From the NCBI RefSeq assembly GCF_018362995.1, contig NZ_CP074372.1, positions 3,782,001-3,846,000 of the forward strand: a stretch of 64,000 nt of DNA. Reading direction: 5' to 3'. Both the position numbers and the translations under genes were made by a program. The notes below the pieces were generated by a model. The model was not told where the DNA came from. It saw only the letters and a program-made list of their open reading frames with translations, and ran no database searches. The stretch is from Chryseobacterium indologenes (GTDB lineage: Bacteria; Bacteroidota; Bacteroidia; Flavobacteriales; Weeksellaceae). Of the stretch, positions 29,732 to 52,285 are shown piece after piece (within the stretch, counting starts at the first letter, position 1; the number at the start of each line of letters is the position of its first letter).

Positions 29732-30064
29732 TTAAGGATTACTTATATTTTGAGCTTTTGTAATAATCATACTTTTTCCTAGAAATCTTAGAAGAGATGC
29801 AATTTTATATAAATCATAATCTATTATCTCTCGTTTTCCATCTAAAACATTCTGCAAAAATTCCCAATCCTCAATTAAGCTTCCCATTGTTAATTCTTTG
29901 GGCTCCTTATATGGGTCATATAATTCTTCATCAGTAATATTCCAATACAAGTCATTATTAAAAGTAAAAAAAGTTGAATCATTTAATTTTTCTAACTCAT
30001 TAATTAAAGCATCAATAAGTTTTTTAATGTCTGCTTTTTTTAATTCGGGTTTACTATTTTCCAT
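29732..30064 (-). CDS. Putative immunity protein for the RHS toxin
   Basis: This 110-residue protein has no signal peptide and is rich in Asp/Glu (for example ITDEELYDPYKEPKEL), as expected of a cytoplasmic antitoxin that binds a basic toxin domain. Its ATG (30064) lies upstream of the RHS gene's TAG stop (30054-30056), an 11-nt overlap that implies coupled translation. The DNA is very AT-rich (12 G/C in the 60 bases at 29761-29820), matching the toxin tip and unlike the RHS core. I recognise no immunity family. The role rests on position, overlap, size and charge; it could be an unrelated small protein. Confidence 0.7.
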   Translation of the reverse strand: MENSKPELKKADIKKLIDALINELEKLNDSTFFTFNNDLYWNITDEELYDPYKEPKELTMGSLIEDWEFLQNVLDGKREIIDYDLYKIASLLRFLGKSMIITKAQNISNP

Positions 30065-33000: not shown

Positions 33001-36000
33001 TGTCCAAAAGATTTTGTAGATGTTTTATAATCCTGTCCCCATTTGTTTGTATATTTTTTAGAAATATTGCCATCGGGATCATACTGAATCACTGTAGAAT
33101 TATATTCTTTGTCTTTTATATATTCATAACTGGTAATTCCTGTAAGGTTAGTTTTGGATTTTACTAATTTCCCCCAACTGTCATACTCATTGTTAAGTAC
33201 ATTTCCAAGTGCATCAGTTTGCTTTTCAACCAATCCCCAGTCATTATAAATAATGTTGGTTTTTAGCCCCAGATTATCAGTTTTCTCAACCACAAATCTT
33301 CCCAGATTATCATATTTTGATTCAGTTTTTTGTTCCTGAGAGTCAGTACTGTTGCTTATCGTTTTCTTTGTGATGTTTCCAAACCCATCATGATTATAAC
33401 TTTCTAATACATATTCTGTATTTTCTCTGTTCCATATTTTCAGAGATTTCAACAGATTACTATCATAAGTATATTCTTCCTTAGCAGATTTGATATCTCC
33501 ATATGCTTGAATAATATCCGTTTTTACACTTGGTTTTCCAATACTATAATTATTTCCGGGTGTTGTATTAGGAGGGTAATATTCCAGTTTGGATGTTAAA
33601 ATAGAAAACCCATCATTGATATTTGTTACAGATTTTTTAGGTAAATATAAGTTATCATATTCTTCTACACTATGTACTGTTTTTATGTTTTTTAGAAAGT
33701 CCTTTGAAATCGTAATGGTTGGGTTTATTGCTGTTACAACTTTATTCTTATCTACATTAGAAACGTTTGTGACGACTGTTCCGTTTAAAAGTTTATCAAT
33801 TTTGTAGCTATATTGCTTGAAGGATAATAGCTGATTGTTGTTTAATGAAATATCTGAAGGAAAAGCCTCTGATTCATATGAAGTTCTTATACTCCATTCC
33901 TTGCTAGGTAAACCTTCGTTTATTGGATCTATCTCAGAGCCATTCCAGATTTTCTTATCATTCATAAGCCATTCTGTAAAAAATACAGATCTGGCAGTTT
34001 GTCTGAAACCGATCATTCCTTTTCCATGAAGATTTCCGATGAGATCTCTATAGCGGAATATTTGTTTCCTCCCAAGTTGTGTAAGTTTAGAAACGACATA
34101 ATAATTGAGGTTTTCTATAATATTTACAAATGGATAAGTTACTGGATTTGTACTGTAAAGAGATTTATAAATAATTCCATCATTCACTAGTTTCGAATAT
34201 TCTATATCAGTTTTTATTCCTGCCTGGGTTATGGATTTTATTCGGGAAACTACATTCAGTTTATTGCCCAAATCCCAAGTGATTAGTTTTGTCTTGTGAA
34301 TAATTGCAAATTCAGTATTAATCTGTGATAGACGGAAAGAACCAAACAAAGGAATGTAATGCTCACCATAACCGGAAAAATTAAGATCTTCACATTCTTT
34401 ACAGTCAATTTCTTTAGGTAAAATAGTGTAGGCTCTGGTAAAAATAGGTTTTCCATGATTGTCTATTGCGTCATTTTTGAAATATTCAAATCCATAACTT
34501 GAGCTCCAGTCATTCCAATTTGCCTCGCTACGGGCAAATACCTGTGATTCAAAAACAATAAAATCACTTTTCCCATCTTTATTCAAATCTGATGTAGAAT
34601 AAGTTCTGGTAATATTTCTATTTTTTCTTGGAGCTCCCTGCCAGCTTGGTTCATATAAGTATAAATTAGAATAATAATGTTTTATAAATCCTTTACCTGT
34701 AGATATATATAGTCTCCACTCCCGGGAGCCTTTGGCAATAGGAGCAATAATATCTGTTTTTCCATCTCCATTAAAGTCACCAAAATACAACCTGTTTAGA
34801 GATTCCAAATTTGAATCAAAGAGCTTATTAAAAGCATTATTACTTAATGTATAAACAGAAATTTTATTTTCATCAGGTATATACAGATCAGATTTACCAT
34901 CATTATCAACATCGGCAATAACTATTCTGTCATAAGAATTGACGATAATTAATTTGCCGTTATCATCATAGTCGGTGAACGTTGTAAATAAAGATGTTAT
35001 ATTCCTATTTAATCCTGTTTTCAGATCAATGTAAAAGTACTCATTTTTTGTTTTTGTATCAGTATTGCCACTACATTTAGAAGTTGTAGTTTGATTTAAA
35101 GAATATAATATTTCTGATATACCATCTCCATTAAAATCACCTTCTTTAACTTTTTGAAAGTATTCTAATTTATTGATGGAACAATTACTTGTACTATATT
35201 CATAAGGAGCTGAGGTAACAAGATTGGGGTAGCTAGACACATCTAATTCGTTCGTTGAAATAAGACTAAGTGTATTATTTTCTTCCAAAGCATATGTTCT
35301 GAATTGTACCTTTTTATTCTGATAATCTATTTCTGACGTTACTATAGCTTGTCTAGAGGTGATTTTATTTTCTTTGGGTATATTTACTGCTCCAACTATT
35401 TCTCCTGCAAAATTAATATTTACAAAATTTCCTGTCCCATCTAGCCTTCCAAGCATTATGGTATTTCCTCTTACGAAATCCACTTTTCCATCTCCATTAA
35501 AATCTCCCGAGATAATATTATCCCCAAAAATTTCATCATATCTGTCATTTTGTTGGAAAATATTGGTTACTTCAGGATCGACTTCATTTTTAAAAACGAT
35601 AGGGTTAGCAGCTTCATCCTTAGAGTTATATTCTGTTATTTTATCAATAAACTGATAATTACTTGCATCTTTCGAATAATCAATACCATATCTTTTAAAT
35701 TGATTTCCGTTTACATTGACATTAACTCCCGACAAAAGCTTATTTTGGACAAAATATTGACCTTGTAAGTATGATTGTTCTCTAAAAGCCCTGTCAATAT
35801 GATTAAATTCTATGTTATTAAAATGAGGTTTGCCCAGTATTTCATTACCTCCCCAGGATATTTTTTTTAAAAGACTGGTATTGGCATCTGTTGCAATTGT
35901 ACAGTCCAGTTGTCCAGTCATTATATCAATGGTGCATCCACCTCCGAAATATTGCTTATCATATTCATAAGTAAGATAGTTTCCTTGAGTATCTTTCCAT

Positions 36001-36755
36001 TTGGTAATATTATATTCAGTGAGTGTTCTGCCGGTATCAATTCCATACCAAGCTTGGGAGCCATCTTCAAAAGTTACTTCAAAATAAAGCGGTCCATTTT
36101 GCTCCGGATTATTTCCTGCCGATTTAATTTTAATGTTAGAGTATTTCTCAGTGACATATTCTGCTCCATCTTTTCCATATTCACCAGATTTCAAAATTAA
36201 TCTCTGACCATTGAAGCTGTAATAGTCGGAATAGTCTAATTGAACTCCCTTAACTTGTCCATCTTTCTCAATCGTTTTTCCTGTTCTGGAAATAGAAGTA
36301 ATTCCGGTTAGGGTCCATCCGTATCCTGCAATTCCGTTTCCTGCCCCGCTGGTGTAGACAAGATTAATCTGAGGTGCTACACTTTTCACTCCCGGAGGTA
36401 AAGCAATCGGTAAAGTAAACTGTAGCTGACCGCTACCATTTACTTCGATATTTCCTTTTGTATCGTGAAATTTGATACTATCCTCTTTTGTTCCCGATGG
36501 ATTAGTTGCGCCCGCATTTGAATCTGCAGGACCTCCTCCCGGATTCTCTGTCGCCGGACCTATCTTGGCTACAAAAGGATTAGAAATAGAGGCTTTAGCT
36601 TGAAATCCTGGTGCTAACACCACTGTTTGAGGATCCTGAACCGTTCTTGAGGTGTTTTCTGCCTGATATAGGATGGTCTGTGAAAAGCCCATTACTGACC
36701 ATAATGACAGTATGAATGATGAAAATAATTGTATTTTCTTATCGTAAAGCTTCAT
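30054..36755 (-). CDS. Giant SpvB/FG-GAP/RHS-repeat protein with variable C-terminal toxin-like module
   Basis: A 2233-residue exported protein. A signal peptide (ending MGFSQ, about residue 26) is followed by an SpvB/TcaC-type domain (about 90-330; VNLVYTSGAGNGIAGYGW-type motif near 130-145). FG-GAP/VCBS repeats lie at about 415-730 (GDFNGDGKVDFV, DVDNDGKSDLYI, GDFNGDGKTDII, DLNKDGKSDFIV). YD repeats run at about 1180-1700, and the RHS core lies at about 1800-1905 (GRLYDPLLRRFLNADEF, then NNPLMFNDPTGE). After the core come a Gly/Ala-rich hydrophobic region with two GGNFWxGA motifs (about 1905-2070), a DGDCPTCPKN link, a GPAGAGKGLK junction near 2145, and a Lys-rich tip of about 90 residues of no family known to me. 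The architecture is that of polymorphic toxins. Confidence 0.9.
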   Translation of the reverse strand: MKLYDKKIQLFSSFILSLWSVMGFSQTILYQAENTSRTVQDPQTVVLAPGFQAKASISNPFVAKIGPATENPGGGPADSNAGATNPSGTKEDSIKFHDTKGNIEVNGSGQLQFTLPIALPPGVKSVAPQINLVYTSGAGNGIAGYGWTLTGITSISRTGKTIEKDGQVKGVQLDYSDYYSFNGQRLILKSGEYGKDGAEYVTEKYSNIKIKSAGNNPEQNGPLYFEVTFEDGSQAWYGIDTGRTLTEYNITKWKDTQGNYLTYEYDKQYFGGGCTIDIMTGQLDCTIATDANTSLLKKISWGGNEILGKPHFNNIEFNHIDRAFREQSYLQGQYFVQNKLLSGVNVNVNGNQFKRYGIDYSKDASNYQFIDKITEYNSKDEAANPIVFKNEVDPEVTNIFQQNDRYDEIFGDNIISGDFNGDGKVDFVRGNTIMLGRLDGTGNFVNINFAGEIVGAVNIPKENKITSRQAIVTSEIDYQNKKVQFRTYALEENNTLSLISTNELDVSSYPNLVTSAPYEYSTSNCSINKLEYFQKVKEGDFNGDGISEILYSLNQTTTSKCSGNTDTKTKNEYFYIDLKTGLNRNITSLFTTFTDYDDNGKLIIVNSYDRIVIADVDNDGKSDLYIPDENKISVYTLSNNAFNKLFDSNLESLNRLYFGDFNGDGKTDIIAPIAKGSREWRLYISTGKGFIKHYYSNLYLYEPSWQGAPRKNRNITRTYSTSDLNKDGKSDFIVFESQVFARSEANWNDWSSSYGFEYFKNDAIDNHGKPIFTRAYTILPKEIDCKECEDLNFSGYGEHYIPLFGSFRLSQINTEFAIIHKTKLITWDLGNKLNVVSRIKSITQAGIKTDIEYSKLVNDGIIYKSLYSTNPVTYPFVNIIENLNYYVVSKLTQLGRKQIFRYRDLIGNLHGKGMIGFRQTARSVFFTEWLMNDKKIWNGSEIDPINEGLPSKEWSIRTSYESEAFPSDISLNNNQLLSFKQYSYKIDKLLNGTVVTNVSNVDKNKVVTAINPTITISKDFLKNIKTVHSVEEYDNLYLPKKSVTNINDGFSILTSKLEYYPPNTTPGNNYSIGKPSVKTDIIQAYGDIKSAKEEYTYDSNLLKSLKIWNRENTEYVLESYNHDGFGNITKKTISNSTDSQEQKTESKYDNLGRFVVEKTDNLGLKTNIIYNDWGLVEKQTDALGNVLNNEYDSWGKLVKSKTNLTGITSYEYIKDKEYNSTVIQYDPDGNISKKYTNKWGQDYKTSTKSFGQGKYISKQTQYDGIGRKLNESEPYFEGQNPTQWNTIYYNDIFFPAKVTSKAFNGKQTETFISGNTITEKELNGYERTTSKTTDALGNIISSIDMGGTINFFYNAAGEQIKAQYAENAVTTKYDSWGRKSEFNDPSNGTYQYEYDGFGQLKKTISPKGTKEYTYNNLGQLISQKEISATDGGQATNKLISFAYDDKGRIISKFGTSKGKAYSSKVSYDPQGRLLSSSESSNGKYFIQKGIIYDDKARVTSYEKQLYSSGVLTKVQIENVYSAWSGELYQVKDKLSGKILWELKETNAKGQVLKSKLGAADINNIYDDNGFLTNVNHSSQVKPGILQLSYSFDAIKNELKSRTTGGDFNINESFDYDNNNRLVNWTNPVTGIKPTTNRNVYDIKGRITQNDQVGTIKFENPAKIYQPTGMTLNAAGEQNYNNDLIQTITYNENNDPVFIDGMKGDAAFQYGLTSMRQRVTYGDNFSIDGDGKFTKFYSEDGSFEVVKDNTTGKEKHLVYIGGNPYESNIVYLKNFTENTGSYKFLHKDYIGSILAISDETGNKLEQRHFDAWGSFTHLQIGNGAIISDQNIILNLSKDLVIDRGYTSHEHFAEIGIIHMNGRLYDPLLRRFLNADEFIQDPYNTQNYNKYSYVMNNPLMFNDPTGEIMGWDDALIAIGIAIFTSTATDYYLNRPINIGNMFQSVVMSLTSAGISSAIGDVFLAGTKVAESLEKAGTIIAKAGAHAIAQGTLSYMQGGNFWSGALSGTFASASNDLLDLAVKHVGENNILRSDGFALFNGAVSGGVGSVLGGGNFWMGAGQGLMVTAFNFLAHKETTVVEDSDDGDCPTCPKNAKQWQTHTTNNYNAFDEEFWTWEKSPIINGSKTYFYSYGKWHEIKYITGDVPIGPAGAGKGLKILLSKESIKSIKSFKNLIIEHQSKLTKYILNPDKYDNVGILKKAPNEIVRNKIIQSRIKHLQHEIKTFHKNINNILNGK

Positions 36756-38449: not shown

Positions 38450-38773
38450 ATGAACCTCTTAAGATGGATACTGGCAATTTACTTTATGGCGTTATCACTG
38501 ATGCCATGTGAAGACACGTCTCATCCATTGAATACAGGTGATAATAAGGTTTCATTAAGTATTAATAGTGCTCATTCTACAGAAAAAGGAGATATATGTT
38601 CTCCATTGTGTGCTTGTAGCTGTTGCCAGATGACTGTCTCAGCATTTAAGATGGATCCACTATTGGAAATTCCAAATCAGATTCCTGCTTATTTTTCAAA
38701 GAAGATTCTATTCCACAAAAACGATTTTGCTTACCAGATTTACGATCCTATCTGGCAGCCTCCTAAAATTTAA
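38450..38773 (+). CDS. Small exported Cys-rich protein (DUF6660-like)
   Basis: This 107-residue protein has a hydrophobic N-terminus (MNLLRWILAIYFMALSLMPC), a His/Ser-rich middle and a cysteine cluster SPLCACSCCQM (about 51-61). It ends IWQPPKI. It resembles small Bacteroidota proteins (DUF6660) that sit in front of heavy-metal efflux genes; that comparison is from memory. The cysteine cluster could bind metal in the periplasm. It lies 148 nt upstream of the RND pump, with a second operator/promoter between them. Its C-terminal I-x-x-PP ending is shared with the two small proteins at 49544 and 51917. Confidence 0.75.
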   Translation: MNLLRWILAIYFMALSLMPCEDTSHPLNTGDNKVSLSINSAHSTEKGDICSPLCACSCCQMTVSAFKMDPLLEIPNQIPAYFSKKILFHKNDFAYQIYDPIWQPPKI

Positions 38774-38828
38774 TTTTTATTGACTTTTAGAAAGCCTATG
38801 CTTTCTGATACTTAACTGTGCTTGAAAC

Positions 38829-38866
38829 TTTGCAATACCATTGCAGAGGTTTTCAGGATATTTTTG
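38829..38866 (+). promoter_or_regulatory. Metal operator and -7 box in front of the RND pump
   Basis: The palindrome TGCAATA-C-CATTGCA (38831-38845; half sites TGCAAT and ATTGCA, 3-nt centre) is followed after exactly 13 nt by TATTTTTG (38859-38866). The same palindrome with the same 13-nt spacing occurs before the P-type ATPase (46917-46952). No separate -33 element is placed at 19-21 nt, so the palindrome may bind an activator or a repressor that covers the -33 region. Confidence 0.75.
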
Positions 38867-38921
38867 CTGCAGTATTTTATACTGCGTGCATTCACTTTTC
38901 AATAAAAATTAAATACAAATC

Positions 38922-41900
38922 GTGTTAGATAAAATCATAAAATTCAGTATCAAAAATAAAGTGATCATTGGTTTAATGACGTTGGTGCTGATCATCTGGG
39001 GTACGTGGAGTGCTACCAGATTACCGATAGATGCTGTACCGGATATCACCAATAACCAGGTACAGATTATTACCGTATGTCCTACATTAGCAGGACAGGA
39101 AGTGGAACAGTTGGTAACCTTTCCCATTGAGCAGAGTATTGCCAATGTTCCCGATATTCAGGAAACAAGAAGTATTTCAAGATTCGGACTTTCTGTAATT
39201 ACAGTAGTGTTCAAGGAAAATGTAGATGTGTATTTTGCCAGACAGCTCATTAATGAACAGCTGAAAAACGCAGTAGAAGAAATTCCAAAAGGAGTAGGAA
39301 CTCCGGAGTTGGCTCCCGTAAGTACAGGTCTTGGAGAAGTGTATCAGTATATTCTTCACCCTAAAAAGGGAAGCGAAAAGAAATACAATGCCAAAGAACT
39401 CCGCACCATGCAGGACTGGATCGTTCGCAGACAGCTGAACGGAACTCCGGGAGTGGCAGAGATTAATAGTTTCGGTGGCGAATTAAAACAGTATGAAGTA
39501 GCTATCGATCCCAATCGGTTAAAAGCAATGGGAACAAGCATTACGGAAATATTTACAGCCCTTGAAAAAAATAACCAGAATACAGGAGGAGCTTATATTG
39601 ATAAAAAGCCCAACGCCTATTTCATCCGTGGAATCGGATTGGTAACCTCTCTTGAAGACATTAAAAACATTGCGGTTAAAAACGAAACAGGAAGCGTTCC
39701 GATTTTTATAAAAGATGTAGCCGATGTCCGTTTAGGAAGTGCTGTTCGTTACGGAGCATTGACGTATGACGGGAAAGTAGATGCCGTGGGTGGAGTAGTG
39801 ATGATGCTAAAAGGAGCCAACAGTAATGAAGTGGTCAGCAACATCAAAGCAAAAATTCCCACAATTCAGAAGTCTCTTCCGGATGATGTCATTATAGAGC
39901 CATTTCTAGATAGAACCGATCTTGTAGACAGAGCCATCAATACCGTACAGAAAAACCTCATCGAAGGAGCGCTAATTGTAATTTTCGTTCTTGTTGTTTT
40001 CCTTGGAAATCTGAGAGCCGGACTTATCGTAGCTTCAGCCATTCCGCTTTCATTACTGTTTGCTCTTGGAATGATGAATGTTTTCGGGGTAAGTGCCAAC
40101 CTGATGAGCCTTGGTGCTATAGATTTCGGATTGATTGTCGATGGAGCCGTTATTATTGTAGAAGCTACTTTACATCATTTGGGAGTAAGGAAATCTGTCC
40201 GTGCATTAACGCAGTCTGAAATGGATGAAGAAGTATTCCTTTCTGCATCCAAAATAAGAAGCAGTGCAGCTTTCGGGGAAATCATCATCCTTATCGTATA
40301 TATCCCGATTCTTACATTAGCTGGCGTAGAAGGAAAAATGTTTACCCCAATGGCGAAAACAGTAGGATTTGCTATTCTTGGAGCTTTAATTTTATCCCTG
40401 ACCTACATTCCTATGATGAGCGCACTGTTTTTATCTAAGAAAATATCCCACAAAGAAACCTTCTCCGATAAAATGATGAATCGCTTGCAAAAGGTTTATC
40501 AGCCATTATTACAGAAAGCGATCAAAGTAAAATATATCATTGTTTCGGCAACCGCTGTAGTCTTCCTTATCTCTGCTTTTATCTTTAAAAATTTGGGAGG
40601 GGAATTTATCCCGCAGCTGCAGGAAGGAGATTTTGCTTTTCACTGTATTTTACCACAGGGGAGCTCATTGAGCCAGAGTATAGAAACTTCCATGCAGGCG
40701 TCAAGAATTATCAAACAGTTTGATGAGGTGAAAATGGTGGTCGGAAAAACGGGTTCCGCTGAGGTTCCTACAGATCCGATGCCACCTGAAGCAACCGATA
40801 TGATTGTTGTATTAAAACCGCAAAGTGAATGGAAAACTAAGAAGTCCTATAATGAGCTTGCAGATGAGATCAGTGAGAAACTGGAAACGATTCCCGGGGT
40901 ATTCTTTGAAAAAAACCAGCCTATTCAGATGCGTTTCAATGAACTGATGACCGGTATCAGACAGGATGTTGCTGTGAAAATTTTCGGAGAAAACCTTGAT
41001 TCCTTAGCTGTGTATGCAGATAAAGTTGGGAAAATCATTCAGACAGTGGACGGAGCTACAGCCCCTCAGATTGAAAGAGTTAGTGGCCTTCCACAAATCA
41101 ATGTTCAGTATGACAGAACAAGAATTGCCAATTACGGATTGAATATTGAGGATGTCAACAATGCAGTAAGTACAGCGTTTGCAGGAAAAGCTGCCGGACA
41201 GGTTTTTGAAAATGAAAGACGTTTTGATCTGGTAGTCCGTCTGGATAGTCTTCACAGAACGGATATCTCAGATGTGAACAACCTGATGATTACTTCCGGT
41301 ACAGGAGCACAGATTCCATTATCGCAGGTCGCGAATATCAGTTATAAACTTGGACCTGCACAGATCAGCCGTGAACAGGGAAAACGTAGAATTGTCATCG
41401 GATTCAATGTAAAAGACCGTGATGTGGAAAGTGTGGTGAAAGATATTCAGGCAAAACTGAATAAAGTGAAACTTCCTTCCGGATATTACTTTACCTACGG
41501 AGGACAGTTTGAAAACCTTCAGGAAGCCAGCAAACGTCTGATGATCGCTGTTCCAGTATCATTGCTTCTTATTTTTATGCTGTTGTATTTTACTTTCCGT
41601 TCATTCAAACAGGCTGCATTGATCTTTACAGCCATTCCTATGAGTGCAATCGGTGGTGTATTTGCGCTTTTAGTGAGAGATATGCCGTTCAGTATCAGTG
41701 CCGGGATCGGATTTATTGCACTTTTTGGAGTTGCAGTACTGAACGGAATTGTTTTGATCGGAACATTCAACCAATTAGAAAAAGAAGGGGAAAGCGATAT
41801 TCTGAAAAGAGTATTTGATGGAACAAAAACCAGATTGAGACCGGTATTAATGACTGCAACAGTAGCTTCTTTAGGATTTTTACCGATGGCTATTTCTACA

Positions 41901-43283
41901 GGTGCGGGTGCTGAAGTACAAAAACCATTGGCAACAGTGGTGATTGGTGGTCTGGTGACAGCTACTTTCCTTACGTTATTCGTTTTGCCGATGCTGTATA
42001 TCATTTTTAACACAAAGATTTTGAAAAGAAGAAATAACAATACGGGAATGTTTACAGCAGTTCTTGTTGTAGGATTCATGATGCTGGGACAGACTTTTAA
42101 AGCACAGTCCAGACCTATCTCTGTGGAACAGGCGGTAGAGCAGGCGGTGAGCAATAACTTAACCCTGCAGTCAAAAGATCTGAGCATTAAATCTGCTGAA
42201 GCATTAAGACCCACAGCAAAAGAACTTCCCAAATTAAGCTTTGAAGCTCAGCTTGGACAATACAACAGTCCGAAGTTTGACCAATCGTTTGCTATTTCAC
42301 AGAGTATTCCTTTTCCCACTTTGTTTAAAGCAAGAAAAGACTTAATCAATGAAAATATTAAAAGCAAACAGATTGATAAAGAAATCACAGCCAATGAGCT
42401 GATAAAGCAGGTACGAACCTATTATTATCAGATTGAATATCTCCAGTATAATAAAGCTCAGCTAACCAGTCTGGATAAATATTATGAGGAATTTATCAGA
42501 ATCGCGACCGTAAGATTCAAAGCAGGTGATATCAAAAAGATTGAAATCAGTACCGCAGAAACCCAGAAAGGAGAAATTGATCTGCTACTCAGACAGAATG
42601 AAGTATATCTGAATAACGCTTATAAGAATTTAAAAACTCTGATGAACACTTCAGAAGATATTGAAGTTCCTTTTAATAAAGATTATGCCCCTTTAAAAGC
42701 AGAAAATGTACTCGACAGTGCTGTAGTTGTCAACAATCCTACAGTAAAAGCTTTTTATCAGGAAATGGAAATTGCAGAAAAAAATAAGAAAGTTGAAAAA
42801 TCACTTGGGCTTCCTGATTTCAGCTTAGGATATACCAATCAGTCTTTGATAGGCTTCCATACTGTTAACGGACAGGAAAATTTTTATAATTCAGGAAAAC
42901 GTTTTCAGTCGGCAACAGTAGGAGTAGCAATTCCTTTGACGTTTGGCGCAACCAAAGCAAGAATTCAGGCTCTGGAATATGACAGACAGGTTGCAGAAAC
43001 CAATGCAAAAATGCAGCAGAAACAACTTTCAGCACAGTTGGACAATGCTTTTAGCCAGTACCAGCAGGATATTCAGCAGTATGATTATTATACAAGTCAG
43101 GCATTGCCTAATGCTGATAAAATTGTAAAAGCAGCCCAGTTGGGATATAAAACAGGAGAAATTTCCTATGTGGAATATCTTTTTGCCCTCCAGACTGCTA
43201 CCAATATTCAGTTGAAATACCTTGAATCTATCCAGCAGGTAAACCAATCTGTAGTGACCATTAATTCAATCATTAATAAATAA
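38922..43283 (+). CDS. CzcA/CusA-type heavy-metal RND pump fused to a TolC-like outer membrane factor
   Basis: The 1453 residues begin at GTG 38922. Residues 1 to about 1035 are a heavy-metal RND transporter: RLPIDAVPDITNNQVQI (about 31-47), the metal/proton-relay motif DFGLIVDGAVIIVEA (about 401-415), and a second transmembrane block with GVAVLNGIVLIG. From about 1045 a hydrophobic segment (MFTAVLVVGFMMLGQTFKAQ) leads into about 390 residues of outer-membrane-factor helices (SVEQAVEQAVSNNLTLQSKD onward). It exports divalent or monovalent metal ions from periplasm or cytoplasm to the outside. The adaptor gene starts within a few bases of the stop. Which metal is moved (Co/Zn/Cd or Cu/Ag) is not decided. 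Confidence 0.93.
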   Translation: MLDKIIKFSIKNKVIIGLMTLVLIIWGTWSATRLPIDAVPDITNNQVQIITVCPTLAGQEVEQLVTFPIEQSIANVPDIQETRSISRFGLSVITVVFKENVDVYFARQLINEQLKNAVEEIPKGVGTPELAPVSTGLGEVYQYILHPKKGSEKKYNAKELRTMQDWIVRRQLNGTPGVAEINSFGGELKQYEVAIDPNRLKAMGTSITEIFTALEKNNQNTGGAYIDKKPNAYFIRGIGLVTSLEDIKNIAVKNETGSVPIFIKDVADVRLGSAVRYGALTYDGKVDAVGGVVMMLKGANSNEVVSNIKAKIPTIQKSLPDDVIIEPFLDRTDLVDRAINTVQKNLIEGALIVIFVLVVFLGNLRAGLIVASAIPLSLLFALGMMNVFGVSANLMSLGAIDFGLIVDGAVIIVEATLHHLGVRKSVRALTQSEMDEEVFLSASKIRSSAAFGEIIILIVYIPILTLAGVEGKMFTPMAKTVGFAILGALILSLTYIPMMSALFLSKKISHKETFSDKMMNRLQKVYQPLLQKAIKVKYIIVSATAVVFLISAFIFKNLGGEFIPQLQEGDFAFHCILPQGSSLSQSIETSMQASRIIKQFDEVKMVVGKTGSAEVPTDPMPPEATDMIVVLKPQSEWKTKKSYNELADEISEKLETIPGVFFEKNQPIQMRFNELMTGIRQDVAVKIFGENLDSLAVYADKVGKIIQTVDGATAPQIERVSGLPQINVQYDRTRIANYGLNIEDVNNAVSTAFAGKAAGQVFENERRFDLVVRLDSLHRTDISDVNNLMITSGTGAQIPLSQVANISYKLGPAQISREQGKRRIVIGFNVKDRDVESVVKDIQAKLNKVKLPSGYYFTYGGQFENLQEASKRLMIAVPVSLLLIFMLLYFTFRSFKQAALIFTAIPMSAIGGVFALLVRDMPFSISAGIGFIALFGVAVLNGIVLIGTFNQLEKEGESDILKRVFDGTKTRLRPVLMTATVASLGFLPMAISTGAGAEVQKPLATVVIGGLVTATFLTLFVLPMLYIIFNTKILKRRNNNTGMFTAVLVVGFMMLGQTFKAQSRPISVEQAVEQAVSNNLTLQSKDLSIKSAEALRPTAKELPKLSFEAQLGQYNSPKFDQSFAISQSIPFPTLFKARKDLINENIKSKQIDKEITANELIKQVRTYYYQIEYLQYNKAQLTSLDKYYEEFIRIATVRFKAGDIKKIEISTAETQKGEIDLLLRQNEVYLNNAYKNLKTLMNTSEDIEVPFNKDYAPLKAENVLDSAVVVNNPTVKAFYQEMEIAEKNKKVEKSLGLPDFSLGYTNQSLIGFHTVNGQENFYNSGKRFQSATVGVAIPLTFGATKARIQALEYDRQVAETNAKMQQKQLSAQLDNAFSQYQQDIQQYDYYTSQALPNADKIVKAAQLGYKTGEISYVEYLFALQTATNIQLKYLESIQQVNQSVVTINSIINK

Positions 43284-43329
43284 TATGAAAGCGCTGAAAT
43301 ACAATATCAGACAAAATACATTCTTAGAT

Positions 43330-44559
43330 ATGAAACTCAAATATAATATCATACCTCTTATCCTGATTTCACTATTACTGACAAGTTGTGGAAAAAAAGA
43401 AGCCGCAGAAGAAAAGGCTCCTGAAAAAACAGAGCAGAAAGAATCTGCCCACGAAGAAGGTCCACAAACTATAGCCTCGCTTACAGAAGATCAGATGAAG
43501 TCTGTAGGAGTTGCTTTGGGAACAGTAGAAATGAAAGAACTGACCTCTACCATAAAAGCGAATGGTCTTCTCAGTGTTCCGAATAGTAATAAAGCAACCA
43601 TTACTTCCCTGTACGGAGGAATTATCAAAACCATCAATATTCAGGTTGGAAGTATCGTGAAGAAAGGACAAGTTATCGCAACCATTGCCAATCCGGAATA
43701 CATCCAGCTTCAGGAAGATTATCTGACCACAAATAGCAGAATTACTTATGCGGAACAGGAATACAGAAGACAAAGAGAACTTTTTGATAATGATGCAGGA
43801 GCGAAGAAAAACCTTCAGAGTGCCGATGCTGAGCTGAAAACATTAAGAACAAAAAGAGCTTCCCTGCTGAAACAGCTTCAGATGATGGGAATAAGTCCCG
43901 GGAAGGTAAACAATGGAAATATGAAATCAGGTTTGGTGATCACTGCCCCTATCAGCGGAACGATCAGCAGTATTACAGCACAAATTGGAAGTTATGTAGA
44001 TATTTCTTCTCCCGTTGCCACAGTGATTGATAACGGTTCTATCCATCTCGATCTTCAGGTGTTTGAAAAAGATCTTCCTAAAATGAGAGTAGGGCAGATT
44101 GTTCATTTTAAACTGACCAACAATCCGGAAATCGAATACGACGCGAGAATTTACAGCATAGGTTCCTCTTTTGAGAACGAAAGTAAAACTATTTCTATGC
44201 ATTGCGAAGTGATCGGAAACAAATCCGGACTGATTGACGGGATGAATATCACCGGAATCGTAAGCCTTGATAAAAGTACAACCCCTGCAGTTCCTACAGA
44301 AGCAATTGTAGAAGCAGACGGAAAATACTACGTGTTTATTCAGACGGATAAAAAAGCGGAAGAAGAACACGAAGAAAAAGGAAAACCCCATTCGAAAACC
44401 TTAAACTTTGAAAAAATTGAAGTGGTAAAAGGAACTTCCGATATGGGATATACCGCGATAACTCCGGTAGGAAGTATTCCGGACAATGCAAAAATAGTAG
44501 TGAAAGGAGCATTCTTTGTCAATGCGAAACTGGTGAATTCAGGTGAGCACGAACATTAA
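43330..44559 (+). CDS. RND efflux periplasmic adaptor lipoprotein (CzcB/CusB-type)
   Basis: The frame is open from ATG 43285, but ATG 43330 gives a proper lipoprotein signal (MKLKYNIIPLILISLLLTSC), so I place the start there, giving 409 residues. After a Glu/Lys-rich linker come the membrane-proximal, lipoyl (GGIIKTINIQVGSIVKKGQVIATI) and coiled-coil hairpin parts, then the second lipoyl half (GLVITAPISGTISSITAQIGSYVD) and beta-barrel. A short Glu/His-rich stretch (about 336-352; EEEHEEKGKPH) near the C-terminus and the final GEHEH could bind metal. It links the RND pump to the outer-membrane channel, here fused to the pump. Confidence 0.92.
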   Translation: MKLKYNIIPLILISLLLTSCGKKEAAEEKAPEKTEQKESAHEEGPQTIASLTEDQMKSVGVALGTVEMKELTSTIKANGLLSVPNSNKATITSLYGGIIKTINIQVGSIVKKGQVIATIANPEYIQLQEDYLTTNSRITYAEQEYRRQRELFDNDAGAKKNLQSADAELKTLRTKRASLLKQLQMMGISPGKVNNGNMKSGLVITAPISGTISSITAQIGSYVDISSPVATVIDNGSIHLDLQVFEKDLPKMRVGQIVHFKLTNNPEIEYDARIYSIGSSFENESKTISMHCEVIGNKSGLIDGMNITGIVSLDKSTTPAVPTEAIVEADGKYYVFIQTDKKAEEEHEEKGKPHSKTLNFEKIEVVKGTSDMGYTAITPVGSIPDNAKIVVKGAFFVNAKLVNSGEHEH

Positions 44560-44690
44560 TGAAACCAGCCGGAACCAGTAAAATGTCGATTTTTATCCTT
44601 AAATTAGAGCTGTTTACAGAATTTTTTATTGAATAAAAACGGCAGGAAAAAGCAAAGATTATCTCACCGAATTTAATAAATGACCTGATT

Positions 44691-45572
44691 ATGTTACTGA
44701 ACAAAAAAATATCAGTCTGGTATTTCATCCGTGAAATAAAAACCCAAATTCTGTTCATCGGAATATTTGCCATTGCCATTGGCCTTCTGGACGAATTGCC
44801 GTGGTTTCGCAAAATATCACTGCCGTTGAATATTCCTGCATTGCTGGGAACAGCAGTATCATTGCTGCTGGCATTCCGAACCTCCCAATCTTACGAAAGA
44901 TGGTGGGAAGCCAGAACAGTCTGGGGAGCCGTTGTCAACGATTCCAGAACTTTTGTGAGACTGGTTATTCAGTTTATGCCTGCCGGAGATGATAAAACCA
45001 TAAAAGATTTTGCCGAAAGACAGATCATCTGGACCTATGCCCTTGGAGAATCGCTGAGAAAACTTCCATTTTCTGAAAAAGTTCAGCAATATCTGGATCA
45101 ACATCAGATCAAAGGAACCAATATTCCCAATGCTATTCTGGATGAACATTCAAAACAGTTGAAAGAAATTACAGCTTCCAAAGGACTGACGGATTTCCAG
45201 CAGATGCAGCTGAACGATATTATCACAAGGCTCTGCGACAGTATGGGAAAATGTGAAAGACTGAAGAATACGGTTTTTCCACGCTCATACAGTGTTTTAG
45301 TTCATATTCTGATCTATGTTTTTGCCGCCATCCTTCCGTTTGGACTTGATGATTCACAGCTGTTGGTAGAAATTGCAATCACTTTCCTGGTTCCGGTGAC
45401 ATTCATTGCTATTGAAAAAACATCCATCATTATGCAGGATCCTTTTGAAAATGGCCCTGTAGATACTCCGATGACTTCTCTTGCGCAAACCATAGAGATC
45501 AATATCAGACAAATGATCGGTGAACAGAATGTTCCGCCTAAAAAAGAAAATACATCTTATTACGAAATGTAA
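44691..45572 (+). CDS. Bestrophin-family ion channel protein
   Basis: This 293-residue inner-membrane protein has hydrophobic segments near 25-45, 48-65, 205-225 and 228-250 and the bestrophin pattern RTSQSYERWWEARTVWGAVVNDSRTF (about 66-91, quoted by its SYERWWEAR core). Bacterial bestrophins form pentameric channels for small ions. The gene lies 131 nt after the adaptor and 18 nt before the CDF gene in the metal island. The neighbours suggest a link to cation stress, but the conducted ion is not known from sequence. Confidence 0.88.
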   Translation: MLLNKKISVWYFIREIKTQILFIGIFAIAIGLLDELPWFRKISLPLNIPALLGTAVSLLLAFRTSQSYERWWEARTVWGAVVNDSRTFVRLVIQFMPAGDDKTIKDFAERQIIWTYALGESLRKLPFSEKVQQYLDQHQIKGTNIPNAILDEHSKQLKEITASKGLTDFQQMQLNDIITRLCDSMGKCERLKNTVFPRSYSVLVHILIYVFAAILPFGLDDSQLLVEIAITFLVPVTFIAIEKTSIIMQDPFENGPVDTPMTSLAQTIEINIRQMIGEQNVPPKKENTSYYEM

Positions 45573-45590
45573 TTAAACCATACATACAAT

Positions 45591-46487
45591 ATGGAAAATA
45601 CACCAAAACAAACCGTTTCTGCAGGAAGCAGACATAAAAAAAGCTTACTGATTGTTCTGTGTCTCAGTGGGACTTATCTTATTGCTGAGGTTATTGGCGG
45701 AATCATGACCAATAGTCTTGCATTATTAGCCGATGCCGCTCATATGCTCACCGATGTGGTAGGATTATTGTTGGCATTTATAGCCATTAAAATTGGAGAA
45801 AGAAAAGCTGATCCTTCCAGAACATACGGATACTACCGTACTGAAATATTGGCAGCAGTAGTGAATGCTGTTGTTTTACTTGGAATTTCAATCTATGTTT
45901 TGTTTGAAGCATACCAGAGATTTCAGAATCCGCCGGAAGTACAAAGCAAATCAATGCTGATTGTAGCCGGAATCGGGTTGATCGTTAATATTGTCGGAAT
46001 GATGATTTTGAGAAAAGACTCAGAAGGCAGCCTGAATATGAAAGGCGCTTATTTTGAAGTACTTTCAGATATGCTTACTTCAGTAGGCGTAATGATTGCC
46101 GGGGTGATTATGCTGACAACCGGATGGTATTATGCCGACCCGTTGATTTCGGCAGCAATTGGACTGCTGATCTTTCCAAGAACATGGAGACTGTTGAAAG
46201 AAGCAATCAATGTTTTACTCGAAGGAACTCCAAAAGATGTTGATATCCATGAACTTCGTACATCTCTGGAAAAAACTCCCGGGGTAAAAAATGTTCATGA
46301 TCTGCATGTATGGTCGCTGACATCCAGTGTCAATGCAATGAGTGCCCATGTTGTAAAGGAAACGGGATATTCTCAGAATCAATTATTAAAAACATTAACG
46401 GATATCACTGTTAATAACTTTAAGATCAGTCATACCACTTTTCAGATAGAGGAGGAAGGCTATGAAGAAAATGAAGTACATCTGTAA
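45591..46487 (+). CDS. Cation diffusion facilitator metal exporter (CzcD/ZitB-like)
   Basis: This 298-residue inner-membrane antiporter moves Zn(II) or similar ions out of the cytoplasm. Six membrane segments are visible. The TM2 metal site is HMLTD (ALLADAAHMLTDVVGLL, about 42-58). In TM5 the partner motif reads EVLSD, with Glu where many Zn exporters have His. The C-terminal cytoplasmic domain (about 205-290) contains the KNVHDLHVWSLTSSVNAMSAHV segment with its metal-binding His residues. It lies between bestrophin and the Fur-family regulator, 17 nt before the latter. Confidence 0.94.
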   Translation: MENTPKQTVSAGSRHKKSLLIVLCLSGTYLIAEVIGGIMTNSLALLADAAHMLTDVVGLLLAFIAIKIGERKADPSRTYGYYRTEILAAVVNAVVLLGISIYVLFEAYQRFQNPPEVQSKSMLIVAGIGLIVNIVGMMILRKDSEGSLNMKGAYFEVLSDMLTSVGVMIAGVIMLTTGWYYADPLISAAIGLLIFPRTWRLLKEAINVLLEGTPKDVDIHELRTSLEKTPGVKNVHDLHVWSLTSSVNAMSAHVVKETGYSQNQLLKTLTDITVNNFKISHTTFQIEEEGYEENEVHL

Positions 46488-46504
46488 AAATTTAAAAGCG
46501 TACA

Positions 46505-46924
46505 ATGAAAAAAGATATAGAACACAAGCTCATTGATAAAAATACCAAACCTACCAGTATGAGGATTCTGGTATATGATTTCTTAAGCTCTCAGGAAGCG
46601 GCTTTATCTCTTTCTGAAATAGAAAATCATTTTGACAATGCTGACAGAATTACCATCTACAGAACATTGAAAACCTTTGAAGAAAAAGGAATTGTTCACA
46701 GCATTCAGGAGAACACAACCACAAAATACAAACTTTGTGAAGATGATTGTGATGAAAAAACACATAAAGACTGGCATCTGCATTTCTACTGTAAAATATG
46801 CAAACAAACTACCTGTAAAGAAGATATTTCCTTCCCGGAAAATATACAGACCAATTTCAGGATTGATGAAATAAGATTGTTTGCTAAAGGAATCTGCGAA
46901 AATTGTCTCGAAAGTTTGCAATAG
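46505..46924 (+). CDS. Fur-family metal-responsive transcriptional regulator
   Basis: This 139-residue regulator has the winged-helix DNA-binding domain (about 15-80, RITIYRTLKTFEEKGIVHSI) and a metal-binding/dimer domain with HLHFYCKICKQTTCKE and the second Cys pair CENC near the end, the structural zinc site. A His-rich HKDWHLHFYC segment supplies regulatory ligands. It may be Zur-like or a Fur-family repressor for other divalent ions. The palindromic operator at 46917 overlaps its stop codon, and an identical site precedes the RND pump. It is therefore the obvious candidate to bind both (inference). Confidence 0.92.
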   Translation: MKKDIEHKLIDKNTKPTSMRILVYDFLSSQEAALSLSEIENHFDNADRITIYRTLKTFEEKGIVHSIQENTTTKYKLCEDDCDEKTHKDWHLHFYCKICKQTTCKEDISFPENIQTNFRIDEIRLFAKGICENCLESLQ

Positions 46925-46952
46925 CATTGCATCAGTCTCATCATTACATTTG
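46915..46952 (+). promoter_or_regulatory. Metal operator and -7 box in front of the P-type ATPase
   Basis: The palindrome TGCAATA-G-CATTGCA (46917-46931) overlaps the regulator's stop codon. It is followed after 13 nt by TACATTTG (46945-46952), 17 nt before the ATPase ATG. Sequence and geometry match the site at 38829-38866 almost exactly. Confidence 0.77.
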
Positions 46953-46969
46953 TATAAAAATATTCAGTT

Positions 46970-48952
46970 ATGGAAAAATGCTGTAGTACAACCCCGGAAA
47001 AACCAGATACAAAAGGACACAAACATAATCACACGGAGGGAGACGGACATGACCACGATGGCCATGATCACTCTCACGACTCCGGAGATCAGACGGTCTT
47101 TCAGATGTTTCTTCCTGCCATTATATCTTTCGTCATTTTATTATTGGGAATTGCCTTTGATAACTATATAAAACCCGCATGGTTTACGGGCTGGGTTCGT
47201 CTGGTATGGTTCCTGGCAGCTTACATTCCTGTAGGATTTCCTGTATTAAAGGATGCTTATAAAAGTATCATCAAGGGAGATGTGTTCTCAGAATTCTTTT
47301 TGATGAGTATCGCCACTATCGGAGCTTTTGCTATCGGAGAATATCCGGAAGGCGTAGCAGTAATGCTTTTTTATGCCGTAGGAGAAGTGTTTCAGTCTAT
47401 GGCGGTCACCAGAGCCAAAGGAAACATAAAAGCTTTATTGGATCAGCGTCCCGATGAGGTAACGGTGGTGGAAAATAATCAGCCTAAAACAATAAAAGCG
47501 AAAGAAGCTAAAATAGGAGATATTATTCAGTTGAAACCCGGTGAAAAACTGGCGCTGGATGGAGAATTGCTTTCAGATTCAGCATCATTCAACACGGCTG
47601 CTTTAACCGGGGAAAGTAAACCTGACACCAAAAATAAAGGCGAAGCCGTTCTTGCCGGAATGATCAATATGAACAGTATTGCTTTAGTTAAAGTAAATAC
47701 AGCCTATGAAGACAGCAAACTAAGTAAAATATTAGAACTGGTGCAGAATGCCACGGCTCAGAAAGCGCCTACAGAATTGTTCATCAGAAAATTTGCGAAA
47801 GTATATACCCCTATCGTAGTATTTCTTGCCATTGGAATCTGTTTGCTGCCTTATTTCTTTGTGAGCGATTATCAGTTCAGAGACTGGCTGTACAGAGCAT
47901 TGATATTCCTGGTAATTTCATGTCCTTGTGCCTTGGTAATCTCCATTCCGTTAGGATATTTCGGGGGAATTGGTGCCGCAAGCCGAAACGGGATCTTATT
48001 CAAAGGAAGTAATTTCCTGGACAGCATTGCAGAAATCCAGAATGTAGTGATGGATAAAACAGGAACAATGACTGAAGGTGTATTCAAAGTTCAGGAAGTA
48101 AGTATGAGCCCTGAATTTAATAAAGAGGAAATCCTGCAGATGGTGAATGTTCTCGAAAGTAAAAGTACCCATCCTGTCGCAACAGCTATTCACAATTATG
48201 TAGGAGATATTAATCACGCCATTCCTTTAGAAAATGTAGAAGAAATTGCCGGCCACGGATTGAAAGCAACAATTAATGGTAAAGAACTTCTGGTAGGAAA
48301 CTTTAAGCTGATGGATAAATTCAACATCAGCTATGATATCAACCATGCCAACATTGTGTACACGGTGATCGCAGTAGCTTACGACAAAAAGTTCGCAGGA
48401 TATATCACGATTGCAGACAGCATAAAAGAAGATGCCAAAGAAACCGTAGACAATTTGCACAAAATGAATGTAAAAGCCACCATGCTGAGCGGAGATAAAG
48501 GAACTGTAGTGAAATACGTAGCAGATCAGCTGGGAATTGACAATGCATTCGGAGACCTGCTGCCTGAAGATAAAGTAAACAAGGTTAAAGAAATCAAAGC
48601 TAAAAACCAAACTGTAGCTTTCGTAGGAGACGGAGTGAATGATGCGCCTGTAGTTGCTTTAAGTGACGTAGGAATTGCAATGGGAGGTTTAGGAAGTGAT
48701 GCCACCATTGAAACAGCAGATGTAGTCATCCAGGATGATAAACCAAGCAAAATCCCAATGGCGATCAAGATCGGGAAACAAACGAAAAAGATAGTTTGGC
48801 AAAATATTATTCTTGCCTTTGCTGTAAAAGCTGTTGTTCTGGTCTTGGGAGCAGGAGGTTTGGCAACGATGTGGGAGGCCGTGTTTGCCGATGTAGGAGT
48901 GGCATTGCTGGCTATTTTAAATGCTGTAAGAATACAAAGGATGAAATTTTAA
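46970..48952 (+). CDS. Heavy-metal P1B-type ATPase (ZntA/CadA-like) with His-rich N-terminus
   Basis: This 660-residue metal-exporting ATPase lacks the usual CxxC heavy-metal-associated domain. Instead it starts MEKCCSTTPEK and a His/Asp-rich stretch (about 13-44) that could bind Zn(II) or similar ions. The membrane metal motif ISCPCALVISIPLGYFGG is at about 318-335, and the phosphorylation site DKTGTMTEG at about 364-372. The HP motif (SKSTHPVATAI) and GDGVNDAPVVALSDVGIAMG hinge are also present. The CPC motif with an N-terminal His-rich stretch points to Zn/Cd/Co/Pb rather than Cu, but this is not conclusive. It has its own operator and promoter. Confidence 0.95.
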   Translation: MEKCCSTTPEKPDTKGHKHNHTEGDGHDHDGHDHSHDSGDQTVFQMFLPAIISFVILLLGIAFDNYIKPAWFTGWVRLVWFLAAYIPVGFPVLKDAYKSIIKGDVFSEFFLMSIATIGAFAIGEYPEGVAVMLFYAVGEVFQSMAVTRAKGNIKALLDQRPDEVTVVENNQPKTIKAKEAKIGDIIQLKPGEKLALDGELLSDSASFNTAALTGESKPDTKNKGEAVLAGMINMNSIALVKVNTAYEDSKLSKILELVQNATAQKAPTELFIRKFAKVYTPIVVFLAIGICLLPYFFVSDYQFRDWLYRALIFLVISCPCALVISIPLGYFGGIGAASRNGILFKGSNFLDSIAEIQNVVMDKTGTMTEGVFKVQEVSMSPEFNKEEILQMVNVLESKSTHPVATAIHNYVGDINHAIPLENVEEIAGHGLKATINGKELLVGNFKLMDKFNISYDINHANIVYTVIAVAYDKKFAGYITIADSIKEDAKETVDNLHKMNVKATMLSGDKGTVVKYVADQLGIDNAFGDLLPEDKVNKVKEIKAKNQTVAFVGDGVNDAPVVALSDVGIAMGGLGSDATIETADVVIQDDKPSKIPMAIKIGKQTKKIVWQNIILAFAVKAVVLVLGAGGLATMWEAVFADVGVALLAILNAVRIQRMKF

Positions 48953-49543: not shown

Positions 49544-49906
49544 TTGAGGTTATTCATTTCCATATTCATCATTTTTACCGTTGCAATACGTCCCGTTTTG
49601 CCATTGGTGAATTATGCTGTGAACTACGATTATATTGTGAAAAACCTTTGTGAGAACAGAAATGTACCACAATCAACCTGTAAAGGAAAATGCTATGTGG
49701 AAAAAGAACTGGCAAAAACAGAAAAACAGTCCAATAGCTCTCAAACGATAAAGATTGCAGGATTAGATGTTTTTATTTCTCATGATATTCTTTCCTTCTC
49801 TTCTCAACTGAACTCGGAGCTGCTTACTGAAGTTCCGGATTCAAGCTATTTCAATTCTCACTCTTCAGAATACTTTTCTAGGATATTTCATCCTCCTTTA
49901 GCTTAA
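49544..49906 (+). CDS. Small exported protein with C-x-GKCY motif, paralogue of 51917-52285
   Basis: This 120-residue protein starts at TTG 49544 (no in-frame ATG precedes the hydrophobic N-terminus MRLFISIFIIFTVAIRP). It contains PLVNYAVNYDYIVKNLCENRN, then CKGKCYVEKELAKTEKQ (about 46-62), and ends IFHPPLA. The three cysteines with a conserved GKCY core could bind copper or form a disulfide. The paralogue at 51917 shares YAVNYDYIVK, GKCY and KELAKT. The genes that follow are a YHS lipoprotein and SCO1, which points to copper handling. I recognise no named family. Confidence 0.72.
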   Translation: MRLFISIFIIFTVAIRPVLPLVNYAVNYDYIVKNLCENRNVPQSTCKGKCYVEKELAKTEKQSNSSQTIKIAGLDVFISHDILSFSSQLNSELLTEVPDSSYFNSHSSEYFSRIFHPPLA

Positions 49907-51916: not shown

Positions 51917-52285
51917 ATGAAATTATTTTACAGCATACTTTTTACTTTTTATATGGTGCTAAGACCTTTGGTGCCATTGGTAGAGTATGCTGTAAATTAT
52001 GATTATATCGTTAAAGTGCTCTGTATTAATAAATCCAGGCCGGAGATTCACTGTAACGGAAAATGTTATCTGAGTAAAGAATTGGCTAAAACCAATGATT
52101 CAGAATCTTCCCCTTTCCAGAAACTCAAAAACTCAGGACAGAAAATTCTTGATATCTATATCCTGCCTGAAACTACAAAGATCAATACCACTGAAAAACG
52201 ACCGTTTTTCAATTTCAACTTCACTTACGAAACAGCCTATTCTTTTCTGTTTCTGACCCATATTTTCAAACCACCGGTTTTTTAA
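51917..52285 (+). CDS. Small exported protein with C-x-GKCY motif, paralogue of 49544-49906
   Basis: This 122-residue protein has a hydrophobic N-terminus (MKLFYSILFTFYMVLRPLVP) and then YAVNYDYIVKVLCINKSRP, CNGKCYLSKELAKTND and the ending IFKPPVF. It shares about half of its first 60 residues with the protein at 49544. The three cysteines fall at the same places. It follows the superoxide dismutase by 4 nt. The MbnP gene begins 217 nt downstream, beyond a repeat element. A copper-linked role is inferred from the neighbours only. Confidence 0.74.
   Translation: MKLFYSILFTFYMVLRPLVPLVEYAVNYDYIVKVLCINKSRPEIHCNGKCYLSKELAKTNDSESSPFQKLKNSGQKILDIYILPETTKINTTEKRPFFNFNFTYETAYSFLFLTHIFKPPVF

Follow-up and report, generated by a model that had tools for sequence, protein, structure and literature searches.

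A Shared Operator of Two Metal-Export Promoters in Chryseobacterium indologenes and Its Probable Regulator, the Fur-Family Protein FurW

The Export Cluster and Its Two Operators

The window considered here is a stretch of 64,000 nt from Chryseobacterium indologenes (NZ_CP074372.1, positions 3,782,001 to 3,846,000). It carries, on the plus strand, a cluster of heavy-metal export genes, two almost identical operators and the gene of a Fur-family protein (46505–46924), named FurW in this work, which is the probable regulator of both operators. Operator 1, TTTGCAATA-C-CATTGCA (38829–38845; full letters TTTGCAATACCATTGCA), is located 5' of czcA-czcC. Operator 2, TTTGCAATA-G-CATTGCA (46915–46931; full letters TTTGCAATAGCATTGCA), is located 5' of zntA, and the stop codon of furW sits within it. 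The operators differ at a single position, and each is directly preceded by GAAA plus one base (conserved GAAA flank at 38824–38827 for operator 1, and at 46910–46913 for operator 2, where it is also furW coding sequence). A -7 box of the TAnnTTTG type lies 13 nt 3' of each operator: TATTTTTG at 38859–38866 and TACATTTG at 46945–46952. An earlier sequence-only reading had described the two sites, their single difference and flanks, the -7 boxes and the overlap with the Fur-family stop codon, and it was correct to the base. Its claim that TTTG is absent at the normal distance also holds: in the upstream bases listed, neither promoter has TTTG at spacings 17–23 from the -7 box, and the nearest are TTTG at spacing 26 and ATTG at 15.

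The operator core has exactly two exact matches in the window. At up to 3 mismatches, 22 matches are found versus a shuffle mean of 11.5 (largest shuffle 20). The -7 box starts about 21 nt downstream of the dyad centre. Since each TGCA core is its own complement and the two are spaced 11 bp from each other, the motif can be read as an inverted or as a direct repeat. The distant copies TTGCAACCCGATTGCA and TTGCAACACAGTTGCA do not discriminate between these readings, and the strict palindrome appears weakened as the sole reading of the box.

The gene following operator 1 (38922–43283) codes for a CzcA heavy-metal RND pump fused to a CzcC-type outer-membrane channel (TIGR00914; PF00873 and PF02321). 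Next come the genes of a CzcB-like RND periplasmic adaptor (43285–44559, family matches), a bestrophin-family membrane protein (44691–45572, PF25539), a CDF family efflux transporter of the CzcD/ZitB-like type (45591–46487, family matches) and FurW. Operator 2 is followed by the gene of a ZntA/CadA-type P1B ATPase with a His-rich N-terminus (46970–48952; TIGR01512, TIGR01525). Upstream of operator 1, a small Cys-rich protein (CxCCQ) of the DUF6660 family is encoded (38450–38773), which is co-conserved with czcA according to the family search and the loci of relatives. In several relatives the box precedes the DUF6660 gene rather than czcA, and this protein may itself belong to the export system.

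The FurW Protein

FurW has the features of the Fur superfamily: the FUR domain (PF01475, residues 13–103, 29.9 bits at a cut-off of 23.1), a winged helix and a C-terminal dimerisation domain with two CxxC pairs (Cys4). The structural zinc pairs, C96xxC99 and C131xxC134, are invariant in 19 aligned sequences. C78, C82, H91, H93 and C104 are invariant in the same alignment, which suggests a thiol-rich site of the Zn/Cd type. The AlphaFold model of FurW (pLDDT 74, medium; residues 106–125 low) is too weak to place the sensing site; in comparison with the PDB it matches the PerR, Zur and Fur folds (E down to 1e-6, TM 0.4–0.6). Proteins 100% identical to FurW are found in Chryseobacterium rhizoplanae and C. 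culicis.

With the NCBIfam Zur equivalog NF008646, FurW scores 32.4 bits against a cut-off of 167. This model is not decisive here, since the local Zur-type protein FurP (discussed below) is also below the cut-off, with 26.2 bits. The Zur-type context (uptake or sparing genes, an operator across the core promoter) is lacking for FurW and is found for FurP instead: the neighbours of FurW are exporters, and its operator lies 13 nt upstream of the -7 box.

Conservation of the Operator and Its Spacing

Loci of relatives were fetched via the FurW protein alone, and the best 80 of 587 candidates (65–100% identical) were taken, so that the set consists mostly of close relatives. It includes Chryseobacterium, Epilithonimonas, Kaistella, Apibacter, Sphingobacterium and other genera. 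The pattern TTGCAAYnnnRTTGCA is present in 76 of these 80 loci (115 sites in 1.26 Mb), versus 0 occurrences of the reversed pattern and 0–2 in each of 10 simulations on the same 1.26 Mb; it was not found in L289, L316, L327 and L334 of the set.

Dereplication of the sites by spacer gave 47 sites, all of which were kept in the counts. TAnnTTTG is located at exactly 13 nt in 33 of them and at 12 nt in three; two more sites have it at other offsets (background rate 0.00055 per position). The exact box at 12 or 13 nt is missing in 11 sites, seven of which have a near -7 box at that distance, such as TAATTTTA or CATCTTTG (L276, L277, L295, L311, L319, L328, L329), and four of which come from a near-perfect palindrome read on the opposite strand (L281, L311, L324, L341). 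The consensus across the sites is GAAAst-TTGCAATAG-y-ATTGCA-N13-TAnnTTTG, with flank counts of G36 A37 A39 A42 among the 47 dereplicated sites and T41 directly before the 16-mer. Conservation of GAAA at zntA may be partly coding, since those bases encode the FurW C-terminus (E-S-L-Q-stop). The spacer sequences between box and -7 box diverge freely, so it is the distance and not the sequence that is kept.

The box is conserved at czcA, zntA, CDF and some furW promoters of many genera with near-fixed geometry. In Chryseobacterium and Epilithonimonas, operator 1 has its counterpart between the DUF6660 gene and czcA. Relatives at a greater distance have TTGCAACCnGATTGCA or TTGCAACACAGTTGCA as the core, with 12 nt spacing, before zntA or DUF6660-czcA. 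The zntA box is kept although furW lies 0.7–3.4 kb upstream with open reading frames (ORFs) between them in L162, L164 and L256. Conservation upstream of orthologues had been proposed as the check on the sequence-only reading; the check was run, and the box proved to be conserved.

Box Copies in the Own Genome and in the Family

The 5.0-Mb genome of the window contains three exact copies of the 16-mer TTGCAATANNATTGCA. After the third, too, a -7 box follows at 13 nt, though a poorer one, GTAATTTG. This box-promoter (G000:C1:897211–897248, L253:4212) precedes the gene of a PEMT/ICMT-like membrane methyltransferase, followed by dapD. A box at the methyltransferase-dapD genes was also observed in other genomes of the genus (L097–L100, L248, L249, L254, L255). 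Among the own-genome places with mismatches, those in L004–L008 were read, and they contain no clear box-promoter. Across the family, TTGCAATRNYATTGCA is found in 50 of 148 genomes at 71 places, some of them listed on both strands and some within coding genes, versus three for the reversed pattern. Exact boxes within coding genes, e.g., the SDR-like genes in L106, L119 and L121, were not counted as operators.

A chance origin of the box was rejected on its counts in the window, the own genome, the family and the FurW loci. A merely local repeat was rejected too, since the box recurs in other genera, in other families and in Sphingobacteriales loci.

Co-Occurrence of the Box with FurW

Co-occurrence was evaluated in 320 genomes of the family, a genome being counted as FurW-positive at E <= 1e-18 and the box-promoter pattern being allowed up to 1 mismatch. 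The box-promoter is present in 210/236 FurW-positive versus 16/84 FurW-negative genomes; the reversed-pattern control gives 8 places in the 320 genomes. In the window genus the proportions are 163/163 and 4/10 (Fisher test, 6e-9, relatedness not corrected for). The FurW-negative box genomes of this genus include G518, where the box is intact (a genome 73% complete), and G350, with a broken half-site. The box-promoter is also present in each of the 17 FurW-positive genomes of Epilithonimonas (g9), three of which count as positive through FurW2-type matches (G101, G087, G068). The six FurW-negative genomes of Epilithonimonas comprise three with an intact box (G119, G115, G141), two with a decayed one (G106, G123) and one with none (G550). 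Thus the czcA box has decayed in some FurW-less genomes, namely G350, G106 and G123. In G119 and G115 the sole Fur-family match is Fur proper.

FurW2 is a further FurW subclade, 38–41% identical, whose genes have the same box 12–14 nt behind them (L217, L221, L246, L247). A box is also found in front of furW at three loci (L241–L243), which were chosen because two boxes were listed there. Judged from these genomes, the link between box and FurW is strong but not absolute. Together with the multi-genus conservation, it lends support to the sequence-only reading, which had proposed the box of a metal regulon and had named the neighbouring Fur-family gene as the likely regulator.

A second czcA-czcB-furW-zntA set with two boxes was observed in L244 (G413:C1:304000–320000), beside ORFs that by eye resemble those of conjugative elements. 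Because of this neighbourhood, the regulator and its boxes may be carried jointly by a mobile element.

The Sister Zur-Type System

The own genome encodes two Fur-family proteins besides FurW. One of them, FurP (G000:C1:1101874–1102254), is divergent from a MerC-domain gene and the gene of a ZigA-like GTPase. COG0523/yciC genes appear in Zur regulons in the cited part of PMC6103462, and FurP is, owing to its ZigA-like neighbour, probably the organism's own Zur. The site TTGTAACTTTGTTGCAA or a close variant, containing TAnnTTTG at offset 3, is located upstream in 12 of 13 Zur-type rows (>50% identical to FurP), and on the merC-zigA side of the own genome the operator likewise overlaps TAnnTTTG. 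The Zur-type operator, with C for T at half-site position 7, thus lies across the -7 box, which would be a repressor position. The FurW site at about -33 would be an activator position, where an upstream-bound protein could contact RNA polymerase.

Of the five places where the own genome has the C-type pattern, only the pair in the zur-merC region is clearly regulatory; those in L257 and L261 fall within coding sequence, and the fifth is in L258. The zur operators seen in Chryseobacterium are C-type, and the FurW sites T-type; this distinction between FurW and Zur is not universal. In a tree of 41 rows, with Fur proper not included, FurW and FurW2 (19 rows) are separated from the Zur-type proteins and FurX (22 rows) with support of 99/100.

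FurX is a further Fur-family clade (L346, L347, L352, L353, L359–L361). Its upstream site, e.g., TTGCAACAGAATCGCAT, is another variant of the same operator, and four of the seven FurX loci lie near an ORF that by eye resembles a GGSYAG-type oxidoreductase.

Proposed Mechanism and Alternative Explanations

Conservation of the operator, its near-fixed spacing, the missing -33 element and the linkage of the box to FurW, all read from the genomes compared, make FurW a well-supported candidate for the regulator of the box. FurW is, on balance, probably a Zur-like paralogue dedicated to the export of Zn and Cd, which would activate its promoters by standing in for the -33 element. Both window palindromes would then be operators of FurW, a clade apart from the likely Zur of the organism, and its range of metals could perhaps extend to Co. 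A FurW dimer, probably with excess Zn or Cd, would bind directly to TTGCAATA-n-nATTGCA, centred at about -33, take the place of the missing element and assist RNA polymerase at a promoter whose sole other element is the TAnnTTTG -7 box. At operator 1, FurW could activate czcA-czcC/czcB/bestrophin/CDF/furW, presumably as a single czc transcript; because furW is among these genes, FurW would raise its own level. At operator 2, it could activate zntA. We infer activation rather than apo-repression. A broader proposal is tentative, with a little under an even chance of being right: FurW could represent a separate, widespread Bacteroidota branch of Fur proteins that senses metal excess and activates exporters in place of -33. 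Its divergence from a Zur-type ancestor would have involved the change of one base in each half-site and the shift of the operator from -7 to -33.

Several observations weigh against the proposed role of FurW. The czcA box-promoter is intact without FurW in G119, G115, G141 and G518, and in FurW-negative G130 and G492 the -7 box is changed, the core being intact in G130 and C-type in G492. G118 (Kaistella, g26) has an intact zntA box and a weak FurW match (E 1.8e-11). Outside the window genus, the 13-nt pattern is missing in 26 of 73 FurW-positive genomes, 12 of which belong to g21 (12 of the 14 FurW-positive genomes there). A 12-nt spacing and C-type cores were observed in two loci read from g10/g21 and in several from f3, and no box directly before furW was found in the distant loci set. 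In g23, the T-type box TTGCAATACTATTGCA is located directly before a Zur-type gene (L104, L105; also L155), so Zur-type proteins may read the T-type box. The stop codon of furW is overlapped by the box in 66 of 79 loci, where a coding constraint therefore adds to the conservation. Fixed phasing could also arise under apo-repression, as far as the cited part of PMC6103462 goes.

In the main alternative scheme, unlikely in our estimate, FurW is a repressor that covers the -33 region in cells without excess metal and blocks RNA polymerase, the metal then freeing it or altering its binding. The site does cover the whole -33 region, and furW follows the czc genes in the same orientation, an arrangement often found with autoregulated repressors. 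A parallel is provided by apo-Zur of C. glutamicum, whose site over -35 serves, in the cited part of PMC6103462, to repress efflux genes. However, the exact 13-nt phase to the -7 box would be needless for a repressor, and RNA polymerase, once released, would find no normally spaced -33 element in the two window promoters. The exact phase and the absent -33 element favour activation by FurW, but they are not proof of it.

The box could instead be bound by another protein: Zur itself, a response regulator of the OmpR/PhoB type, for which TTGCA-N6-TTGCA would be a direct repeat replacing -35, or a ZntR of the MerR type. The motif allows for such a reading, since it can be taken as an inverted or a direct repeat, the latter being analogous to the PhoB box. 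The FurW-less genomes that keep the box and the boxes before Zur-type genes of g23 (L104, L105) are consistent with it, as are the response-regulator-like ORFs seen by eye from their first residues near zntA in L116, L161, L162, L164 and L256. In the related Riemerella, a MerR-family protein named ZntR is connected with zinc homeostasis in the cited part of PMC11960050. Nevertheless, another regulator seems rather improbable given the joint presence of box and FurW in all 163 FurW-positive genomes of the genus, the same box adjoining FurW2, and the three furW genes with a box in front. The response-regulator-like ORFs are, moreover, confined to g23 loci and G118 among the loci whose ORF starts were read, and the C-type zur operators of Chryseobacterium differ from its T-type FurW sites. 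The MerR/ZntR promoter layout, with a dyad between -35 and -10 and a long spacer, is not seen in the window promoters. Finally, the overlap with the furW stop codon could suggest an inert shared sequence kept by furW coding and recent common descent. This is extremely improbable: the czcA-side and Epilithonimonas boxes lie outside furW coding sequence yet have the same phase, and a third, unrelated promoter of the own genome carries the box.

Other Features of the Window

Two ORFs of about 120 amino acids (49544–49906 and 51917–52285) look paralogous by eye, sharing a stretch like NYDYIVK...CKGKCYL.KELAKT, and flank genes of an SCO-like protein and a superoxide dismutase. Family searches gave no family match for ORF 49544–49906. 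On the minus strand beside the export cluster (30054–36755), a protein of 2233 amino acids is encoded, which by eye resembles the YD/RHS-repeat type.

Comparison with Known Systems

Sensing of excess Zn and Cd in Bacteroidota seems to be little described. Among the matches listed from open-licence PMC papers, the only zinc-regulator study in Bacteroidota, as far as the cited part of it goes, is that of the Riemerella MerR-family ZntR (PMC11960050); neither a Fur-family zinc regulon of Bacteroidota nor a separate export-dedicated Fur branch with an operator replacing -33 was found among these matches. The FurW system offers a candidate regulator–operator pair, whose consensus can be applied to hundreds of genomes, and possibly a simple metal-responsive promoter for Bacteroidota. 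With a Zur-type paralogue at -7 and FurW at -33, the question of whether a Fur protein represses or activates becomes directly testable. If the broader proposal on FurW as a separate branch is true, a single pair of paralogues would illustrate the turning of a Fur-type repressor into a dedicated activator, and a regulator would substitute for a core promoter element.

Activation of efflux by Fur-family proteins is already known, and the FurW operator is Nur-like in layout (PMC3919588). In the parts of the sources cited, Zur activates czrCBA-zntA in Caulobacter crescentus (PMC4176598), zitB in Streptomyces coelicolor (PMC5472717) and a metallothionein gene in a Synechococcus (PMC9337993). The Caulobacter and Streptomyces proteins resemble FurW in that a Fur-family protein is tied to the same export genes (RND and ZntA, or CDF) and in that the operator is on the upstream side of the promoter. 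As described there, however, one Zur performs both import repression and export activation in these organisms, whereas FurW is a separate, export-tied paralogue. Zur of Caulobacter and Streptomyces binds upstream of an existing -35, according to the cited parts (PMC4176598, PMC5472717), whereas the FurW operator is over the -33 region.

The sequence-only reading could not match the box to a known Fur or Zur box. This is corrected here: the operator has a Nur-like layout, the box TTGCAA-N5-TTGCA fitting the Streptomyces Nur operator tTGCaa-N5-ttGCAA (PMC3919588), whose last base A is found in 9 of the 47 dereplicated sites. The likeness is one of operator layout. Nur, as the cited text describes it, is a nickel-specific regulator of superoxide dismutase genes, whereas FurW orthologues sit with Zn/Cd exporters. 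The local FurP shares with FurW a similar Cys/His pattern (by eye) and the half-site TTGCAAY, but it is located beside merC and the ZigA-like GTPase gene, has C at position 7 and an operator across the -7 boxes, and belongs to a separate clade.

ZntR of the MerR family controls zntA in response to zinc, as is proposed for FurW, but it is not a Fur-family protein. The binding sites of MerR proteins lie between -35 and -10, whereas the FurW site stops 13 nt short of the -7 box. Apo-Zur of C. glutamicum resembles FurW in that a Fur-family site covers the -35 region at efflux genes; unlike the FurW operator, its site is a 10-1-10 direct repeat and serves apo-repression, in the cited part of PMC6103462.

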